From positions 3,622,001 through 3,686,000 of the forward strand of contig NZ_CP129968.2 in NCBI RefSeq assembly GCF_030503875.2: DNA of 64,000 nucleotides, read 5' to 3'. The first letter of the stretch is position 1, and each line of letters begins with the position of its first letter. Positions 23,619 through 32,425 of this stretch are shown in pieces. The position numbers and the translations under genes were made by a program. Origin of the DNA: Marivirga arenosa. GTDB taxonomy: Bacteria > Bacteroidota > Bacteroidia > Cytophagales > Cyclobacteriaceae. The notes under the pieces are model-generated. The model did not search any database. It worked only from the letters and a program-made list of their open reading frames with translations, and was not told where the DNA came from.

Positions 23619-24890
23619 TTAAAGCTGTCTTTTAGAGGTTAAGTAATTATACTTTTCAATTAAAGTCGCTTGTTTTGCTTTTGCTATAGTTTCTAGCTTT
23701 TGGTATTTCAATAATTGTTGTCTACTTCTTAATAACTCTTCAAATTCTACCCCAGAAGCCGTATAAGTCTTTTCCAATATTGACAGCCTATTATTTACCT
23801 TTTCAATTTGTCGCCCGAACAACGATATGTACTCTAACTGTTTATTAATTTCATAAAGTGTAGAAGCATTCTCTGTACTTAAATCATTTAATAAATTTTC
23901 CTTTTTTAATTGGTATTGCTCTTGGATCAATTCTGCTTCCTTGATTTGAGCTTTATATTTTTTCCTGAAAATGGGTAAGCTAACACTTACCATTGGCATC
24001 AAAACATCCTTACCATTATCACTGGAGGTGACATCGTTTCTTTCACCTACAATCACATAATCGAGCCCCACTCCAATTTTTGGAAGTGATTGCTTTCTAA
24101 TAGATTCAATCCTTTCTTTTGAGGACTCTTTTTTATAATCAATAGCCTGAACTAAAGGATGGTTTTGAAAAGCTGTATCCAAAGATATTTTAGACTCAAA
24201 GCCTGCTATGATAGGAATTGAATTAAGCTCGGGTTCCGTTTCCGAATTCAAAATATTCTGAAAAGCAGTCAATAATGATGGATACTTATCTTCAAGAAGT
24301 AATAGTTCGGTTTCAGCCTCATCAATCATGATATCCACACGAAGAACATCCACCATGCTCGCTTTTGAATTACTCAGCTTTCGTTCTGCTAAAGCTTTAT
24401 ATTCGTGAAGAATATCAATATTCTCCTTTTCAAGTTTTTGTAGTTTATGGTTTTCAAGAATATCATAATAAGATTGAGCTACTTTCCAATACAGCTTATT
24501 TCTACTATCTAAAAAATTCTGAAAGTATGATTCTGCTTCTAAAGCTGCTGCATTTTCATTTGCCTTTAATGTCCCAAACCAAGGAAACATCTGACTCAGA
24601 CTAAACTTTGCCAACTGCGGCCCCACTCTGGTTTCTACAGGTGAAATAAAATATCCTATTGAAAAATTTGGGTCTGCTAATGCTGAAACTTGAGGCAACT
24701 TTTGAAGTGCCGCTTCATACGCTTTATAATCTGACAGTATAGCTGGATTATTTTTAACCGCAATTTCAAAGTACTCTTGCACTTTCAATTGAGTTTCCTG
24801 AGAATTAGAGCTATAGGAAAACAAAAGCATTGAAATAATGCACAGGAAAAATTTGCAATATTTATTTTTTATTGATGTGTCCATTTTCAT
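23619..24890 (-). CDS. TolC family outer-membrane efflux channel
   Basis: A 423-residue outer-membrane factor with a signal peptide (residues about 10-30, cleavage after SNSQ) and two long alpha-helical coiled-coil regions typical of TolC/CusC. Seen features are AVKNNPAILSDYKAYEAAL and, in the second repeat, AFQNHPLVQAIDYKKESSKE, the paired N-P motifs of the two OEP repeats. It forms the exit duct of the tripartite pump encoded around it: 12 bases separate it from the CusA gene and 24 from the CusB gene. Cys-lipidation is not evident. Confidence 0.92.
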   Translation of the reverse strand: MKMDTSIKNKYCKFFLCIISMLLFSYSSNSQETQLKVQEYFEIAVKNNPAILSDYKAYEAALQKLPQVSALADPNFSIGYFISPVETRVGPQLAKFSLSQMFPWFGTLKANENAAALEAESYFQNFLDSRNKLYWKVAQSYYDILENHKLQKLEKENIDILHEYKALAERKLSNSKASMVDVLRVDIMIDEAETELLLLEDKYPSLLTAFQNILNSETEPELNSIPIIAGFESKISLDTAFQNHPLVQAIDYKKESSKERIESIRKQSLPKIGVGLDYVIVGERNDVTSSDNGKDVLMPMVSVSLPIFRKKYKAQIKEAELIQEQYQLKKENLLNDLSTENASTLYEINKQLEYISLFGRQIEKVNNRLSILEKTYTASGVEFEELLRSRQQLLKYQKLETIAKAKQATLIEKYNYLTSKRQL

Positions 24891-24902
24891 CTATTTAATA
24901 AT

Positions 24903-27900
24903 CTAATTATTAGATTTATTTGTCATCATTTCTTTTTTAAGCTTACTCTCTTCTTTAATTGCATAAAGCACAGGAATTAAAAAATAGGTAATAGATGCAA
25001 TTAACATTCCCCCAAATGCTGGAATAGCCATAGGCACCATTATATCAGAGCCTTTTCCGGTTGAAGTTAAGATTGGAAGTAAGGCAATAATGGTTGTAGT
25101 AGATGTCATTACCGCTGGCTTTATTCTTTTTTGTCCTGCTGCAATCACAGCTAGCTTCACATCCTTTAAAGTATTAGATTTTCTTTTAGCAAAACTCTGA
25201 TCAAGATAGGTAGCCATTACTACACCATCATCTGTAGCAATACCAAACAAGGCTATAAATCCAACCCAAACTGCCACACTCAAATTGATAGTTTGAATCT
25301 GAAATAAGGATCTAAAATTAATACCGAAGCCGTCTATATTTAAAAACCAACTTTGATCATATAACCATAACATGATGAACCCTCCACTGAATGCCAAAGC
25401 AATTCCTGTGAATACCATCATACTCGTTAAAACAGATTTAAACTGAAAATAAAGTATTAGGAAGATAACCAAAAGTACTATTGGTACAATGAAACTTAAT
25501 CTCTTCTCTGCTCTAATTTGATTTTCATAACTTCCTGAAAATTTATAATTAACTCCTGTAGGCACTTCAATCTCACCAGCATCCATCTTTTGCTGAATTA
25601 ATTTTTTTGAATCTTCTACTGCCGTAACCTCTGCAAACCCATCCTTTTTATCAAATAATACATACCCTACCAGGAATGTGTTTTCACTTTTAATAGCTTG
25701 AGGACCTCTCTCATATTTTATATCTACAATTTGCCCTAAAGGAATTTGATAATCAGTGGGTGTACTAATTAACATTTTTGATAAATTCTCAGGATTATCT
25801 CGCAGCTCTCGTGGATAGCGAACTCTAACAGGAAAACGTTCTCTACCTTCCACTGTATTGCTAATCACCATTCCACCAATTGCAGTCTCAATAAACTGTT
25901 GAACATCTTCAACAGTCAAACCATACCTGGCAATTTCCTGCCGATCAATATCCAGTAGCATATAAGGTTTCCCAACTATACGATCCGCAAATACCGCTTC
26001 AGATTTTACAGAGTTTACCTCTTTCAACACATCCTCTAATTCGAGGGAGAATTTTTCTATTGAACGCAAATCAGGTCCAAATACTTTAATCCCCATAGGT
26101 GCTCTCATTCCGGTTTGAAGCATCACTAATCGAGTTTCTATAGGCTGTAGTTTTGGAGCTGAAGTTACACCTGGGATTTTAGTAGCTTTAGTAATCTCAT
26201 TCCATATATCATCTGGAGTTTTAATATGATCCCTCCAATTTCTAAAATAAAGACCGTCTTTATCTGAGATTAGGAACTGTTTGAAATTACCATTTACTAT
26301 CTGTTCAATTTCAGTTTGAATTCTTTCATCTAACTCCTGACCTTCCACATTAATGAATTTCCTGCTTTTTGTAGAAAAATAGATTTCCTCAGGAATATCA
26401 TTTACTGATTTTAAACGCTCAGAATTTATGTAGAAATTGCCATCAGAATTAATTTTAAACCTCTGCCTTTCTCCTTTTTTATTTAGAATAAATTCTGGTT
26501 TATAATTTATGATATTTTCGAACATTGAAACCGGTGCAGGATCTAAAGCGGATTCTGCCCTACCTAATTTCCCTACCGTTAAGTCAACTTCAGGGATATT
26601 GGTTAGGATCATATCAAGCTGTCCTAAAACTTTACGGTTGTAGGCAACACCAGAGTGAGGCATAGAAGTAGGCATAAGCAAAAAGCTTCCTTCATTTAAT
26701 GATGGCATAAACTCTTCTCCTATACCTGGAAATGTATTCGATAAAGTAATCCAAGGTTCTGATTCATCAATATCAAAACCTACTTTTTCAAAGACCGAAG
26801 AAACAAATCCGAAAACCGTATTAAAACCCAACCAAATTACAATTCCAATCAGAATCAAAAATGAAGGAATCGTTAAAAAGGTCTTTTTGTATTCTAAACA
26901 TAGGTGTAAAATAGACTTATAATAAGCTTCTATCAAAATGAAAGCCGATAGAATTATTCCTACAATAATCCCAACAAAAATAAAATTTGAAAACAATGAC
27001 TTGGCAGGTCCAAGAGGCAGCCAATATTCAGCTAACAACCAAAGCACTGCAAACAATATGATAATTATATCAGCCTTATTGATTATCCATTTTAGAATCT
27101 TATTTAAACTTATATCTCTTTTGACTACTGCAGATTTTACAATCCCCATGATTCCAAAAAGAAATAGTACAACACCTGACCAAGTATGACCAAAAATGAT
27201 CAAAATTAAGCCTGCAAATAGTAAAACTGGATCTATTAAACGGATAAACCACTTATTTTTCAATTTCAAACCAAAAAATAAATGAGCCAGAGCAGGTAAT
27301 ATTAATAAGCTGACCAAAAGAGCTGCAACCAATGCAAAAGTCTTAGTAAATGCCAGTGGGCTAAATAATTTCCCTTCAGCAGCCTGTAAAGAAAAAACAG
27401 GGATGAAACTGACTATGGTAGTAGAAACCGCAGTCAAAATTGCACCTGATACTTCTGAAGCTCCTCTATAAATGACATCAATTAGTTTATCTCCAGCTTT
27501 TGACTCATCTAGGTGTTTTATAATATTCTCAGTCAGAATAATTCCCAAATCCACCATGGTTCCAATAGCGATGGCTATACCTGAAAGGGCTACTATATTT
27601 GCTGTAATTCCCACATAGCGCATGACTATGAATACAATTAGAATGGCAATTGGCAACAAAGAAGAAATTAATAGAGAAGCCCTTATTCTGTAAACCATTA
27701 TGGTAATTACCAATATTGAAATCAGTACTTGCAGGCTAAGAGCATCCTCAAGCGTATTAAGTGTTTCATAGATTAAATCAGATCTATCATAGAAAGGCAC
27801 AATGGTAAGCTTACTTTCTGTTCCATCCGTTAAAGTTTTAGAGGGTAAGCCTGGTGCAATTTCTTTTATTTTTGTCTTAACATTGTTGATCACTTGCAGT

Positions 27901-28838
27901 GGATTTGCTCCATACCTTGCCACTACTACACCACCTACCACTTCAGCACCATCTTTATCCAAAATTCCTCTTCTTGTAGCGGGCCCTAAGCTTACACTTG
28001 CAATATCTTTAATACGAATCGGTGTATTATTCTCAACTGCTACTACAGCCGATTCTATATCTTCTTTATTCTTTATATATCCTAAACCACGAACTAAGTA
28101 TTCCGCCTGGTTAATCTCTATAGTTTTAGCGCCAACATCTCTATTAGAATTTTTAACAGCTGAAAGAACTTTATTTAAGGATATATTATAGATTTTTAAA
28201 GCATTCGGATTTACATCAATTTGATATTCTTTTACAAAACCTCCAATTGATGCTACTTCAGATACATCTTCAGCTGCATTTAAACCATATTTCACATAAT
28301 AATCTTGAACAGATCGGATTTCATCCAAATTCCAGCCTCCTGTAGGATTTCTATTCTGATCCCGACCTTCAATGGTGTACCAATAAACTTGTCCTAAAGA
28401 GGTTGCATCTGGCCCCAGGCTAGGCTGTACTCCTTCAGGCAATAGACCTTGAGGTATAGAATTCAGTTTTTCCAGTATTCTAGATCTGGTCCAGTAAAAT
28501 TCATTTTCTTCATCAAAAATGATATAGATACTAGAAAAGCCAAAAATTGAAGAGCTTCTAATAGTTTTTACACCTGGAATACCTAATAAATAAGTGGTTA
28601 AAGGATAAGAAATTTGATCTTCAATATCCTGAGGAGAACGTCCCTTCCATTCTGTAAAAACTATTTGCTGATCTTCACCATAATTAGGAATAGCATCAAC
28701 AGGAACTGGATTTGAAGGCAGGAAATTAATATTCCAACCAAAAGGAGCTACCGCTATTCCCCAGGCCACAAAACCTATCAATAAAATAAAGGTGACTAAC
28801 TTATTATATAAGAAAAATTTAATAATTCGATTTAACAT
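24903..28838 (-). CDS. CusA/CzcA family heavy-metal efflux RND pump
   Basis: A 1311-residue inner-membrane proton-driven pump, longer than the ~1040-1050 residues of CusA. The N-terminus (VTFILLIGFVAWG), DAIPNYGEDQQIVFTEWKGR, GSNDVG-type loops and GIATDDGVVMATYLDQSF (about residues 1205-1222) are typical of the heavy-metal branch. The extra ~260 residues come from added hydrophobic segments after TM6 (about 520-690) and an enlarged periplasmic part (about 790-920) before TSAPKLQPIETRLVMLQTG. Metals are likely Cu(I)/Ag(I) given the partners, but Zn/Co/Cd cannot be excluded. Its ATG lies 6 bases after a structured inverted repeat. Confidence 0.95.
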   Translation of the reverse strand: MLNRIIKFFLYNKLVTFILLIGFVAWGIAVAPFGWNINFLPSNPVPVDAIPNYGEDQQIVFTEWKGRSPQDIEDQISYPLTTYLLGIPGVKTIRSSSIFGFSSIYIIFDEENEFYWTRSRILEKLNSIPQGLLPEGVQPSLGPDATSLGQVYWYTIEGRDQNRNPTGGWNLDEIRSVQDYYVKYGLNAAEDVSEVASIGGFVKEYQIDVNPNALKIYNISLNKVLSAVKNSNRDVGAKTIEINQAEYLVRGLGYIKNKEDIESAVVAVENNTPIRIKDIASVSLGPATRRGILDKDGAEVVGGVVVARYGANPLQVINNVKTKIKEIAPGLPSKTLTDGTESKLTIVPFYDRSDLIYETLNTLEDALSLQVLISILVITIMVYRIRASLLISSLLPIAILIVFIVMRYVGITANIVALSGIAIAIGTMVDLGIILTENIIKHLDESKAGDKLIDVIYRGASEVSGAILTAVSTTIVSFIPVFSLQAAEGKLFSPLAFTKTFALVAALLVSLLILPALAHLFFGLKLKNKWFIRLIDPVLLFAGLILIIFGHTWSGVVLFLFGIMGIVKSAVVKRDISLNKILKWIINKADIIIILFAVLWLLAEYWLPLGPAKSLFSNFIFVGIIVGIILSAFILIEAYYKSILHLCLEYKKTFLTIPSFLILIGIVIWLGFNTVFGFVSSVFEKVGFDIDESEPWITLSNTFPGIGEEFMPSLNEGSFLLMPTSMPHSGVAYNRKVLGQLDMILTNIPEVDLTVGKLGRAESALDPAPVSMFENIINYKPEFILNKKGERQRFKINSDGNFYINSERLKSVNDIPEEIYFSTKSRKFINVEGQELDERIQTEIEQIVNGNFKQFLISDKDGLYFRNWRDHIKTPDDIWNEITKATKIPGVTSAPKLQPIETRLVMLQTGMRAPMGIKVFGPDLRSIEKFSLELEDVLKEVNSVKSEAVFADRIVGKPYMLLDIDRQEIARYGLTVEDVQQFIETAIGGMVISNTVEGRERFPVRVRYPRELRDNPENLSKMLISTPTDYQIPLGQIVDIKYERGPQAIKSENTFLVGYVLFDKKDGFAEVTAVEDSKKLIQQKMDAGEIEVPTGVNYKFSGSYENQIRAEKRLSFIVPIVLLVIFLILYFQFKSVLTSMMVFTGIALAFSGGFIMLWLYDQSWFLNIDGFGINFRSLFQIQTINLSVAVWVGFIALFGIATDDGVVMATYLDQSFAKRKSNTLKDVKLAVIAAGQKRIKPAVMTSTTTIIALLPILTSTGKGSDIMVPMAIPAFGGMLIASITYFLIPVLYAIKEESKLKKEMMTNKSNN

Positions 28839-28843
28839 AAAAT

Positions 28844-28914
28844 TACCATTGATTTAAACATAGATGTTTCATCAAAGGAGCATTTGCTCTCTTTGCTTGT
28901 TTAAAGCAATGGTA
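28844..28914 (-). promoter_or_regulatory. structured inverted-repeat element, predicted three-way junction, between HYC_CC_PP and cusA-like genes
   Basis: Outer arms TACCATTGATTTAAAC (28844-28859) and GTTTAAAGCAATGGTA (28899-28914) pair at 15 of 16 positions. Inside are two smaller hairpins: AAAGGAGC (28874-28881) with GCTC-T-CTTT (28886-28894), and GATG (28863-28866) with CATC (28870-28873). The whole fills the 79-base gap and ends 5 bases before the pump ATG. It is not followed by a T run, so it is not a plain terminator. It could control translation or stability of the pump mRNA. The fold is by eye. Confidence 0.6.
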
Positions 28915-28917
28915 GTA

Positions 28918-29349
28918 TTAAATCAAAAAGCTTTGGTAAAGTACTTCTAAAGAGGCTTTATAAAGTGGGGGATCGTCAAAATCTACAACGCTAAATCTCG
29001 CCTGATTATCTAGTGGACTAGAAAATAAATAATTAACCAAAACATAGATAACTGAAACAAAAGAAGATCCAGATTTCAGAATGGAATTACTTTCCTTCTC
29101 TTGCTGTATATCATCAACAGATATTTTTTGTGTTTCAGTTTTACAGCAGCCTTCATTATCAGATTGGTGCTTATGACAAGGCGGCATTTGTTCATCATCC
29201 TGATGGTGTGTGCAGTGCTGGTCACTTTTCGCCAAAGCCACATCTTGTAGGTTATCACCACAGTAGTGCTTATACATCACCGCACCCAAGCTTGTACTCA
29301 ATACAAGAAAGGATAAAAATAGTGCTAGTATAGTTTTCTGCTTTGGCAT
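28918..29349 (-). CDS. HYC_CC_PP family envelope protein
   Basis: A 143-residue protein from the ATG at 29349; an in-frame TTG three codons upstream is less likely. A signal/membrane segment (about 6-24) is followed by the family signatures His28-Tyr29-Cys30 (KHYCGD), a Cys/His/Met-rich stretch (CTHHQDDEQMPPCHKHQ), Cys68-Cys69 (GCCKTE) and DDPPLYK near the C-terminus, which gives the family its name. A second hydrophobic stretch lies near residues 90-110. The family is found beside Bacteroidota copper or heavy-metal pumps. Metal capture is inferred from its ligands and its place as first gene of the operon. Confidence 0.88.
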   Translation of the reverse strand: MPKQKTILALFLSFLVLSTSLGAVMYKHYCGDNLQDVALAKSDQHCTHHQDDEQMPPCHKHQSDNEGCCKTETQKISVDDIQQEKESNSILKSGSSFVSVIYVLVNYLFSSPLDNQARFSVVDFDDPPLYKASLEVLYQSFLI

Positions 29350-29575
29350 GAGTTTCAATTACGAATGTAAATGTAAAAGGTTTTAAATGAACATAAAAAT
29401 GTTACATTATCCAGATGATTTTAATAGAGCAATAATATTCATCTAGGTTAAGAAAAAATAAACTTTTTAAAACTTCTTATATAAAGCCCTGAATTTGAAA
29501 ACTATTTATTCTCATTCAGGTTTATAGAAAAGTTATTTCAGATAACAATTTAGTTTTCATGTTCAATTAGGTTTG

Positions 29576-29607
29576 GCGACACGTTTAGTTCACGTGTCGC
29601 TTTTTTT
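29576..29607 (+). terminator. strong rightward intrinsic terminator with no annotated upstream gene
   Basis: GCGACACGT (29576-29584) pairs perfectly with ACGTGTCGC (29592-29600) and is followed rightward by seven T (29601-29607). On the leftward strand the hairpin also follows the nuclease stop codon, but no T run comes after it in that direction. No rightward gene lies to its left. The 29350-29575 stretch holds no credible protein gene; it could encode a small RNA ending here. Confidence 0.75.
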
Positions 29608-32425
29608 ATCTATTGCAAATAGTTCTATAAGGACAATACGTACAATTCTCTATTTTATTAGTTTGATCGAATTCTTGATCACTGATAAATATTTCCTCCA
29701 AGATTTTTTTTAATCCCTCCTCAAATTCATCCATCAGTAATACTGCATTATTCAGCTCTTTAGAATTCATTTTTAGTTTCTCAGAAAAATCATTTTGAAA
29801 TAAACCTTTCCCATTATATAAACCTGGCATCACGCTCTTTTCGCCATCATAATCCGATGATTTAATGTATAGAAATGAATAAATTAAAGTTTGCATAGCA
29901 GCACCATTTCTATCTTTATGATCCCGGTCAAATAAGCTTTCAACATCCGGAAACCTAACCTCATCTCCTCCAGATTTATAATCGATAACTCGAATTGTAT
30001 TTTCCTTTTCATCCAATCGATCAATAGAACCTTTCATTCTGATGTTGCAACCATTATCCAATGGTACTTTGTACTCAAATTCACCTTCAACGGCTTTTAC
30101 AGTAAAAGGAGCAATTTTGATATCATAATCAAGAATTTGCGCTATCATTCTTTTCACCACATCTCTAATAATGATATTTCTTCCTTCAAACTTATACTCT
30201 TCTACATCTTTTCCATTTCCGTATAGATCAGCAAATTCTTTACGAACTATTTTATCTATATCCTTTTTTAATAAAATGATTTTATTCTGGTCCAGCGGTT
30301 CTCCTAAAACCTTCCCATAAAGCTCCTCCATGGTATGATGTAAAATATTACCAAAGTCAGCTGCATCCAAATCCTCACTTACTTCTTCCCTTTCTTTTAA
30401 GCCTGCTATGTATTTAAAATAAAACTGAAGCCTACAGTTTAAATAAGTTTTAAGTGCTGAGGCCGATAAATATCTTTCATCAGAATATTGATCAAGAATT
30501 GAACGAATCTCTTCATTTTTCCCAATACTGATGGGGTATGATTCTGCTGCCTGAGGATCTTGATTTAAATTTTGAAGTTTTATCTTTTCAGACTGAAGTC
30601 CTAATTCATATTGTAATTGTAAAAGATAACGACTAGGTTCTCCTCCTTTTCCACCAGTATTATCACTATTAAACATTAAATTAATTTCCTTAGATCGCTG
30701 AAGAAGTCTATAAAATAAATACGCATAAATAGCATCTCTTTGCTCTAAAGTGGGAAGGCCGTACGCTTTACGAATATTATAGGGGATGAAAGATTGATTA
30801 CTAGCACCACCAGGAAAACTGTCTTCACTAATGCTTAGAAAATAAATGTGATCAAAATCCAGATTCCTAGATTCAAGTACTCCCATAATCTGAATCCCCT
30901 CAAGCGGTTCTCCTGAAAAGGGCACTCTTATAGATTGAATAATTCTATTAAATAACCGTATAAAAGCATTGATATCGAGTGATAGATCAAAATCGCTAAT
31001 TATTTGTTCTAACTGACTTATTTGTTTGTATATCTCAGCAGTGAATTCTTGTTCAGTAGTTTCTATTTCCTCAGAATGAACAAATTGTAATATATTCCTT
31101 AAGTAAAGGAAATAATTTTCTGATCCATCTTTAAATAAAATCTTTATCAGCTCATTGTGTTCTTGAGTTTCTAGGAATAAATCCTCTAATTTCAATCGAA
31201 TTAAATTATTGCTTTCTATATGTTGAATAAGTGATTTCGCCTCTTCCTCTAATAAATTCCCTACAAATGGATGCTTCAATACTTTTAACACATCTCTATG
31301 ATTAAAGGAAATTTTGTCTTCATCAGTCCTACTATTTTTCTGTAAATGAAGGCAAGTATTCATTAATTGATAAATAGAAGCAAAACGCAGTGGATAGCCC
31401 ATTGTAACATTCACCTTTTTGATATTTTCAGGTAATGCATACAAAACAGGGAATAGTAGGGTTTCATCTCCTAAAATTATTGCAGTTTTTTCAGGAAATT
31501 CTAAATTTTGCTTCAACAATAATTGCCCTAAAAATTTTGTCTGTGCAATATTTCCTTTTACCTCCGTAATATTTATTTGAGGTGTATTATCTAAGATTTT
31601 ATTAGGCAAATCAGAAGGCATTGTCTTCCCTAAAATACTATGATTTGCGTATTCCCTGAAAAAATTTCCTGCTTCCTGATTTATATTTTCTTTTGAAGCA
31701 TAATAAGCATCCAAATCCCAAAAAACCTCTGCTCCATTTTTAACTGCTTCAGAAATAATGACTTCTTCTGTTTTGGTTAAGGCGTTAAATCCAGCAAAAA
31801 TTAATTTATCAGATATCCTTTCTTTACCTGAAAGTAATTTTTCTGCATAAATCCTATATAATAATCCGTTATACGCCTTTTTATGTTGTAATAATTTATT
31901 TCTAAAATCTTCATAAACTGGGTATAAGATATTCCAATTACGTGTAAATTTCTCTTGGGCTTCTTTGGGTTTTGCTTCAAAACTTCTCCAAAATTTCTCT
32001 ATCAATAGAAGTTGTTCTTTTGTTAAGAAATCTGTGTCTGATAATTTTTTCCATTCAAATAAATTAGCAAATAATGGTTTAGCATCAGCCATATAATGAT
32101 CTACATCATTAAAATCTTTCACTAACATATCCCCCCAGAAATAGAACTGCTCAAAATCCTCCTTAAAAGGAGCATGTTTTTGAAAAACTTCATGTAAAGT
32201 AAACACTAAACTGAGCTGATCAGGAACAGCATATTCACTTTGCCGTTTCACAAAATCCTCTATTGAAATAGATTCGGGTGCCCAAATGGGTTTATTTATC
32301 AATTTCCTAAGAGCTGTATTAAAAAATAAACTAGCTCTTCTATTCGGAAAAATTATAGTGTAGTCGGAAATGTCTTCTCCGTATTTATGATGAATATTTT
32401 GAGCTATTTCTTCTAAGAATGTCAT
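29606..32425 (-). CDS. AddB-like PD-(D/E)XK nuclease
   Basis: A 939-residue partner of the helicase-nuclease upstream, for double-strand-break end resection. The C-terminal nuclease has ENTIRVIDYKSGGDE (D-x-K core, about 775-790). An iron-staple layout is seen: a Cys in TYLNCRLQFYFKYIAG (about 660) and NCTYCPYRTICNR at the end (C-x2-C-x5-C), the 4Fe-4S pattern known from AddB. The N-terminal helicase-like half (TIIFPNRRASLFF) lacks an intact Walker A. It lies 44 bases downstream of the AddA-like gene. Confidence 0.9.
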   Translation of the reverse strand: MTFLEEIAQNIHHKYGEDISDYTIIFPNRRASLFFNTALRKLINKPIWAPESISIEDFVKRQSEYAVPDQLSLVFTLHEVFQKHAPFKEDFEQFYFWGDMLVKDFNDVDHYMADAKPLFANLFEWKKLSDTDFLTKEQLLLIEKFWRSFEAKPKEAQEKFTRNWNILYPVYEDFRNKLLQHKKAYNGLLYRIYAEKLLSGKERISDKLIFAGFNALTKTEEVIISEAVKNGAEVFWDLDAYYASKENINQEAGNFFREYANHSILGKTMPSDLPNKILDNTPQINITEVKGNIAQTKFLGQLLLKQNLEFPEKTAIILGDETLLFPVLYALPENIKKVNVTMGYPLRFASIYQLMNTCLHLQKNSRTDEDKISFNHRDVLKVLKHPFVGNLLEEEAKSLIQHIESNNLIRLKLEDLFLETQEHNELIKILFKDGSENYFLYLRNILQFVHSEEIETTEQEFTAEIYKQISQLEQIISDFDLSLDINAFIRLFNRIIQSIRVPFSGEPLEGIQIMGVLESRNLDFDHIYFLSISEDSFPGGASNQSFIPYNIRKAYGLPTLEQRDAIYAYLFYRLLQRSKEINLMFNSDNTGGKGGEPSRYLLQLQYELGLQSEKIKLQNLNQDPQAAESYPISIGKNEEIRSILDQYSDERYLSASALKTYLNCRLQFYFKYIAGLKEREEVSEDLDAADFGNILHHTMEELYGKVLGEPLDQNKIILLKKDIDKIVRKEFADLYGNGKDVEEYKFEGRNIIIRDVVKRMIAQILDYDIKIAPFTVKAVEGEFEYKVPLDNGCNIRMKGSIDRLDEKENTIRVIDYKSGGDEVRFPDVESLFDRDHKDRNGAAMQTLIYSFLYIKSSDYDGEKSVMPGLYNGKGLFQNDFSEKLKMNSKELNNAVLLMDEFEEGLKKILEEIFISDQEFDQTNKIENCTYCPYRTICNR

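Follow-up and report, generated by a model that had tools for sequence, protein, structure and literature searches.

A predicted RNA stem between HYC_CC_PP and cusA in Marivirga arenosa as a probable translational-coupling clamp opened at the upstream stop codon

The gap between a HYC_CC_PP gene and the cusA-type pump gene that follows it in Marivirga arenosa is probably a translational-coupling clamp opened by the ribosome at the HYC_CC_PP stop codon, possibly with HYC_CC_PP itself as the metal sensor. We put the probability of this reading at roughly two in three. In the proposed mechanism, the sequence just past the HYC_CC_PP stop codon would pair with the sequence before, and partly over, the cusA start, which would hide the start. 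A ribosome at the HYC_CC_PP stop codon would cover the foot of the 5' arm, break the closing helix, and free the cusA start; an inner hairpin would keep the spacer compact. The predicted structure, its recurring position and architecture, the maintenance of pairing under sequence turnover, and the gain in start accessibility after removal of the ribosome zone are computed results. That ribosomes act in this way in the cell is what the computed structure suggests. The upstream gene, whose involvement was missed by an initial annotation of this DNA, is probably part of the device.

The HYC_CC_PP-cusA gap in Marivirga

The window, that is, the whole stretch of DNA analyzed, comprises 64,000 nt of the M. 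arenosa genome. The HYC_CC_PP gene (28918..29358, - strand; 146 aa if the start is TTG) scores 65.5 bits against the NCBIfam profile NF047658, for which the cut-off is 28, and its product hence belongs to that family. It is followed by a gene for a CusA/CzcA-family heavy-metal RND pump (24903..28838, - strand; TIGR00914 match), which is the controlled gene in the model, and, 12 nt after cusA, by a gene for an outer-membrane efflux protein of the OEP family (23619..24890, - strand). HYC_CC_PP, cusA, and tolC likely form an operon. Since HYC_CC_PP and cusA are both on the - strand, the relevant RNA is that of the - strand. When the pump was aligned to E. coli CusA (3ne5), three methionines coincided with candidate metal-site positions; we take these three 3ne5 methionines to be the Cu(I)/Ag(I) sites of the E. 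coli protein. On the + strand of the window, a strong hairpin followed by a T run is located at 29575-29601, between HYC_CC_PP and a - strand gene at 29606-32425. In the named collection searched, loci matching the HYC_CC_PP proteins of this genome belong to M. arenosa, M. sericea, M. atlantica, and one Bacteroidetes MAG.

The gap between the HYC_CC_PP stop (28918) and the cusA ATG (28838) is 79 nt long. The 5' arm of the closing helix, which comes first in the transcript (28899..28914, - strand), starts 3 nt after the stop codon. The 3' arm (28844..28859, - strand) ends 5 nt before the ATG, as the initial annotation had stated, and the two 16-base arms that it described do pair, a single internal mismatch leaving 15 of 16 positions paired. 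The repeat was said to fill the whole gap; it covers 71 of the 79 nt. A folding energy of -25.2 kcal/mol was computed for the gap, compared with -9.65 (sd 2.63) for 200 dinucleotide shuffles (z -5.91), and no shuffle was as low. Two hairpins had been proposed inside the arms. Both are inverted repeats in letters, but only the one at 28873..28895 (- strand; CAAAG-A-GAGC / GCTC-CTTTG) forms in the MFE and centroid structures; its helix is kept in relatives with other letters. The second, GATG-AAA-CATC (GATGTTTCATC; 28863..28873, - strand), is absent from both structures and is not conserved: the 4-bp hairpin is missing in five other aligned same-genus genomes, and a genome of the same species (G098) retains 3 bp. 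With a single inner hairpin in the model, the element is a stem with an internal loop and a hairpin. The three-way junction of the initial annotation is wrong for this species, in which one outer stem closes one hairpin. In the MFE structure, the last HYC_CC_PP codons with the stop codon and the next 2 nt (28916..28927, - strand) are the predicted partner of the cusA start (28826..28837, - strand; the UG of the AUG with the codons that follow), which extends the clamp over the start codon. The mean probability of pairing between the AUG and the stop-proximal zone is 0.59 at this locus.

A DNA search of 98 genomes found the full element at the same place in five of eight other same-genus genomes (G001, G003-G006), and G098 likewise carries it. 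The gap in those five folds at z values of -4.0 to -6.3. Within Marivirga, the outer arms are near-invariant, and the inner helix swaps letters yet remains a helix. Among the outer-arm pairs of the genus (n = 16), 12 are invariant, one is altered on a single side, one is altered on both, and two deviate solely through unpaired cells; the outer arms of the genus are too conserved to covary. In the covariation counts for the genus (6 and 7 rows), paired cells exceeded slid versions and did not clearly exceed shuffles. The Marivirga pair cells held 10 G-U and 0 A-C combinations, which favors sense RNA, part of the pairs having been picked from the sense fold. In genome G002, a HYC_CC_PP-like match (L010) runs across stop codons (one TGA and one TAA) and has no adjacent CusA gene; it is perhaps a decayed copy.

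Recurrence of the helix, start accessibility, and pairing under sequence turnover

A first set contained 54 HYC_CC_PP loci, 46 of them with a CusA-like ORF downstream. Among 45 readable gaps of 69-211 nt, 38 folded at z < -2, and in 37 the outermost paired bases of the gap were partners of each other. The larger set comprised 132 loci, repeated genomes included and taken mostly as best-scoring HYC_CC_PP matches. No CusA-like ORF was present downstream in 28 loci, and eight loci with CusA were excluded (start unmappable or gap > 320 nt); the 96 mapped HYC_CC_PP-cusA gaps were reduced to 71 non-redundant gaps at 80% similarity. The control set held 89 co-directional gaps, comparable in length, that were collected from the M. 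arenosa genome, from two further genomes of the family, and from the window; their starts were the first ATGs of ORFs of at least 110 codons, taken without gene finding. A gap counted as having a closing helix if its first 16 nt formed at least 5 pairs with its last 16 nt.

A closing helix was found in 44 of 71 gaps and 10 of 89 controls (odds ratio 12.9, p 1e-11), compared with 18% in shuffles of either set; by this definition, 27 of 71 gaps were without it. The mean fold z was -3.39 for the gaps and -1.63 for the controls. Across the family, the helix starts 0-8 nt past the HYC_CC_PP stop codon and usually ends 0-8 nt before the cusA AUG. Its frequency was 41/55 at a CusA identity of at least 57% and 3/16 below 57%.

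The cost of opening positions -18 to +6 was computed with 45-48 nt of context. The ribosome zone removed in the second calculation was everything up to 9 nt past the HYC_CC_PP stop, as a stopped ribosome would cover. The median opening cost fell from 9.3 to 4.5 kcal/mol in the 71 gaps and from 5.9 to 5.5 in the controls. An accessibility gain of at least 3 was obtained in 40 of 71 gaps vs 2 of 89 controls, and the AUG was paired with the stop-proximal zone at P ≥ 0.5 in 31 of 71 and 2 of 89, respectively. At the M. arenosa locus, the cost fell from 16.2 to 6.7 once the ribosome zone was removed.

The 71 gaps were drawn via best HYC_CC_PP matches, and the set therefore favors one HYC_CC_PP class. 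As a bias check, 28 loci of the family were drawn by CusA instead; eight of their gaps were already among the 96. An HYC_CC_PP-profile match was present within 900 nt upstream in 28/28 of these loci, a closing helix in 15/28, and an accessibility gain in 11/28. When they were split at E < 1e-19 with an HYC_CC_PP profile built from the first 45 proteins of this same study, the 11 loci below the threshold had the helix in 10 cases and the gain in nine, and the other 17 had the helix in five and the gain in two. Nine CusA-like paralogues (~33% identity) had no HYC_CC_PP match, and their opening costs were 1.8-6.8. The clamp accompanies one class of HYC_CC_PP, with the tail PP-x10-Q-x-F-L-[IL]-stop, and weaker-scoring HYC_CC_PP genes are mostly without it. 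Ten of the 28 CusA-drawn loci (L195-L203, L206) have gaps of 233-306 nt, no accessibility gain, and HYC_CC_PP tails like ...TPIYIFCQVFLI. Because of the long gaps and the missing gain, this subgroup may use another mechanism, e.g., a Rho-dependent one as in CruR.

Pairing was kept while the letters changed. In the main CusA class, 53 of the 55 gaps have a distinct first 12 nt, and the mean identity there is 0.29. In an arm-swap test of the 71 gaps, own arms paired at a mean of -7.72 kcal/mol vs -3.72 for permuted arms (z -15.6, 0/10000 permutations). The result was weaker for the 16 gaps with CusA below 57% (z -2.6), and the controls gave a z of -1.4 (797/10000 permutations). In other families of the phylum, the values were -7.08 vs -2.94 (0/10000) for 22 of 23 loci, one 393-nt gap being omitted and some loci being close relatives. 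Because the swap test is alignment-free, a replaced helix carries full weight in it. Sense and antisense strands fold equally well over the 71 gaps, and the swap test alone cannot tell RNA from DNA; in the family set, G-U and A-C mismatches were without clear difference. Conservation and covariation of the arms had been proposed beforehand as a test of the element. The arms of the genus proved too invariant to covary, and in the family and phylum pairing is kept despite near-complete sequence turnover. The clamp is a clean case of an RNA shape kept under near-total sequence turnover, of a kind missed by sequence-based RNA family searches. A known Rfam family was considered and rejected: covariance models gave 0 matches at the gathering threshold in the window and 20 related loci, in line with the initial annotation, which knew of no described element of this shape in this position.

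CusA is not the only downstream target. Ten non-CusA downstream ORFs were scanned, of which seven were TonB-receptor-like, one was an IS1595-type transposase, and two were without family match; the transposase ORF (L074) perhaps reflects an insertion into the operon. At 13 non-CusA loci, a gain of at least 3 was obtained in 10 at the first start listed, and a closing helix was found in only 4, since in many cases more sequence separates the end of the 3' arm from the ATG. For the 23 loci from other families of the phylum, the gain was found in 17 and the closing helix likewise in 17, and CusA was downstream in 12. Eight non-CusA targets of the phylum were scanned: five TonB-receptor-like proteins, an AraC-type regulator, an HMA/MauE protein, and a secretion-sorting-domain protein. 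These scans indicate that a stop-adjacent helix follows HYC_CC_PP genes before more than one kind of target. At L220-L227, HYC_CC_PP tails like ...NAPPLFKLYHQYIFYS precede TonB-receptor-like genes (five of the eight Pfam-scanned, all five positive), with the closing helix right after the stop codon. At L234 and L236, HYC_CC_PP genes precede the AraC-type regulator and the HMA/MauE protein without clear accessibility gain.

The initial annotation had proposed an mRNA structure that controls pump translation. Computational support for this proposal is good, as provided by the recurring architecture, the arm-swap test, and start accessibility.

The HYC_CC_PP protein and competing explanations

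HYC_CC_PP matches were found in 277 of 295 genomes of the family, 95 of 148 of the order, and 59 of 198 of the phylum (overlapping draws). In 38 aligned proteins, five H/C residues (H31, C33, C49, C71, and C72) are invariant, and L20, P130, P131, Q142, F144, L145, and one glycine complete the (near-)invariant positions. The N-terminal hydrophobic segment is strong by hydropathy and is a candidate Sec signal peptide. The distance from the CC pair to the C terminus is 71-76 aa between the 10th and 90th percentiles (71 proteins). A second hydrophobic stretch, which attains a hydropathy of 1.6 in only 42 of 71 proteins, ends 29-33 residues from the C terminus (interquartile range), about the length of the tunnel. 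The C-terminal half is mostly variable, yet the tail, PP...QSFLI-stop in M. arenosa, is conserved to the stop at fixed spacing: PP is 15-18 aa from the C-terminal end in 66/71 proteins, and the C-terminal residues are FLI or FLL in 61/71. The stop codon itself varies. An AlphaFold model built with five sequences had a pLDDT of 45 and was unusable. RAPP or RGPP occurred in 0 of 132 HYC_CC_PP reading frames. Membership of DUF2946 (PF11162) was rejected; this family was absent among the Pfam matches of the 38 proteins with E up to 10, a range in which HMMER filters drop most weak matches, and had no match in the own genome. The literature searched, which included few subscription papers and no preprints, yielded no paper naming HYC_CC_PP and, among the matches listed, no paper on the HYC_CC_PP-cusA gap.

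HYC_CC_PP may act as a nascent-chain sensor of an exported metal, probably copper, of which we are less certain than of the opening by the ribosome. Its H/C residues would sense the metal outside the cytoplasm. The conserved C-terminal tail, which ends exactly at the stop codon, would sit in the tunnel and set the dwell of the ribosome at the stop, and the dwell time would in turn set the amount of CusA made. The fixed peptide tail suggests such a regulated dwell. Stalling at PP itself is unlikely, since PP lies ~16 codons before the stop and a ribosome there would leave the clamp closed; the putative pausing would need to occur at the stop codon or immediately beside it. The metal step of the model is proposed by analogy with CutF and CruR, and the sign of the metal response cannot be read from the sequence.

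The strongest competitor, to which we give considerably less weight, is plain translational coupling, in which neither nascent-chain pausing nor metal sensing is involved and the clamp would do no more than make cusA output depend on translation of HYC_CC_PP. All of the RNA evidence can be explained in this way, pausing in HYC_CC_PP being putative. It fits less well with a tail that is conserved up to the stop at fixed spacing despite the variable C-terminal half, and with a single protein family that stands, like copper-sensing upstream ORFs, before targets as unrelated as CusA pumps and TonB receptors, in both settings with a similar stop-adjacent helix.

Attenuation or partial termination, in which the stem, as an intrinsic terminator or through a link to Rho, would reduce cusA compared with HYC_CC_PP, is improbable. 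HYC_CC_PP-cusA loci with gaps of 233-306 nt exist, and CruR acts via Rho with a 162-nt gap (PMC9426467, available text). In four of the five other same-genus genomes, 5-7 consecutive T follow the stem, so the absence of a T run noted in the initial annotation holds for this locus and not for those relatives. Its conclusion that the element is no ordinary terminator was upheld: at least 6 T are present in the last 8 nt before the ATG in just 3 of 71 gaps, whereas at least 4 A are present there in 29 of 71. An intrinsic terminator, i.e., a G+C-rich stem with a T run, was rejected on these counts and on the TAATTTT that follows the stem in the window. Termination would also leave the pairing that runs onto the AUG unexplained. 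No terminator-like site was found on the - strand at 28700-29700. A promoter in the gap was likewise rejected, with no sigma-70-type or Bacteroidota-type match in the region; the Bacteroidota-type pattern TTTG-N17..23-TANNTTTG had 0 matches in the window (1-64000) vs 5.6 expected from shuffles. A transcript end or a promoter, which had been named beforehand as a possible explanation of the repeat, is not indicated by the T-run counts or the promoter scans of the region.

An mRNA processing or stability element that gives the HYC_CC_PP and cusA segments different half-lives is marginally less probable still. A long stem between cistrons is a usual shape for such an element, but it would have no need to start 0-8 nt from the stop, to end next to or over the AUG, or to follow a conserved peptide tail. 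Least probable of all is a DNA-level palindrome (a regulator operator or a mobile inverted repeat of the REP/MITE type), which would agree with the lack of strand asymmetry in folding over the 71 gaps but not with arm letters that differ between species (53/55 distinct, mean identity 0.29) or with a position fixed between stop and start. A REP/MITE-type mobile repeat was rejected after a sequence search of the 4.05 Mb genome (2 contigs) returned a single full copy; the sole other genomic match to the element (L002) is 29 nt inside an ExbD-like coding frame.

Wider proposal and comparison with known systems

At somewhat less than even odds, we propose that HYC_CC_PP proteins with the PP-x10-Q-x-F-L-[IL]-stop tail, together with other-tailed relatives in the phylum, are metal-sensing arrest peptides: stalled at their own stop codon or directly beside it, they would control CusA-type pumps or TonB receptors by breaking a fast-evolving clamp, as a Bacteroidota counterpart of CutF/CruR (DUF2946). 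The proposed stop-type stall site would be distinct from the RAPP and SecM sites. If this is true, at least the QSFLI-type-tail class could be assigned a testable function, namely to regulate in cis the translation of metal pumps and TonB receptors. Copper-responsive upstream-ORF control would also extend to a phylum in which, according to the available text of PMC12992588, the RAPP/RGPP class is absent for Cu-related genes.

In the SecM-SecA, MifM-YidC2, and VemP-SecDF systems, a nascent chain undergoing export or insertion stalls its ribosome, and the ribosome opens the stem between the genes and increases initiation at the next one, as proposed here; these systems differ in that they sense the export machinery and not a metal (PMC9973294, available text). 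The NSP-stop and NAP-stop clusters of Bacteroidota likewise consist of upstream peptides whose conserved end lies at the stop codon. They are found upstream of protein-localization genes (secDF for NAP-stop), end in proline, and belong to different families (PMC10987492, available text).

In CruR-BfrG of Bordetella pertussis, the upstream ORF encodes a Cys motif and, at a conserved distance from it, a C-terminal arrest motif; it precedes a TonB receptor, the same kind of target as in part of the HYC_CC_PP set. By contrast, the RAPP of CruR lies three residues before the end, and control is by Rho-dependent termination, with copper lowering expression; copper relieves the arrest (PMC9426467, available text). 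Arrest of CruR has been demonstrated in vitro (PMC12992588, available text).

The CutF-CutO system of Rhodobacter capsulatus shares an upstream protein that is small and exported, has metal-binding residues, and carries proline in a C-terminal motif, as well as an intergenic stem-loop that shields the next start, a copper-homeostasis target, and gaps of mostly <100 nt; copper prolongs a stall-like state of CutF and unfolds the stem (PMC9973294, available text). At the HYC_CC_PP locus, a stem between the upstream ORF and the target that shields the target start is likewise predicted. CutF-like proteins are listed in Bacteroidota, with ACR_tran/CusA and TonB-like proteins among the downstream neighbours, and the available text of PMC9973294 describes no intergenic structure for this phylum. 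HYC_CC_PP differs from CutF in having no DUF2946 match. The CutF filter takes proteins of <150 aa with PP within 15 residues of the C terminus (PMC9973294); HYC_CC_PP, at 146 aa, is within the length limit, and its PP starts 17 aa from the end, outside the PP limit. Family f26 has NAPP-tailed proteins that would satisfy the PP limit, and an overlap of HYC_CC_PP with the CutF-like list of PMC9973294, as far as its available text goes, is possible, especially for NAPP-tailed proteins such as those at L220-L227. The predicted HYC_CC_PP clamp also encloses almost all of the gap and can extend to the AUG. Copper-related control by upstream ORFs is already known from CutF and CruR, and the HYC_CC_PP device would possibly work like CutF/CutO and CruR with another protein family.
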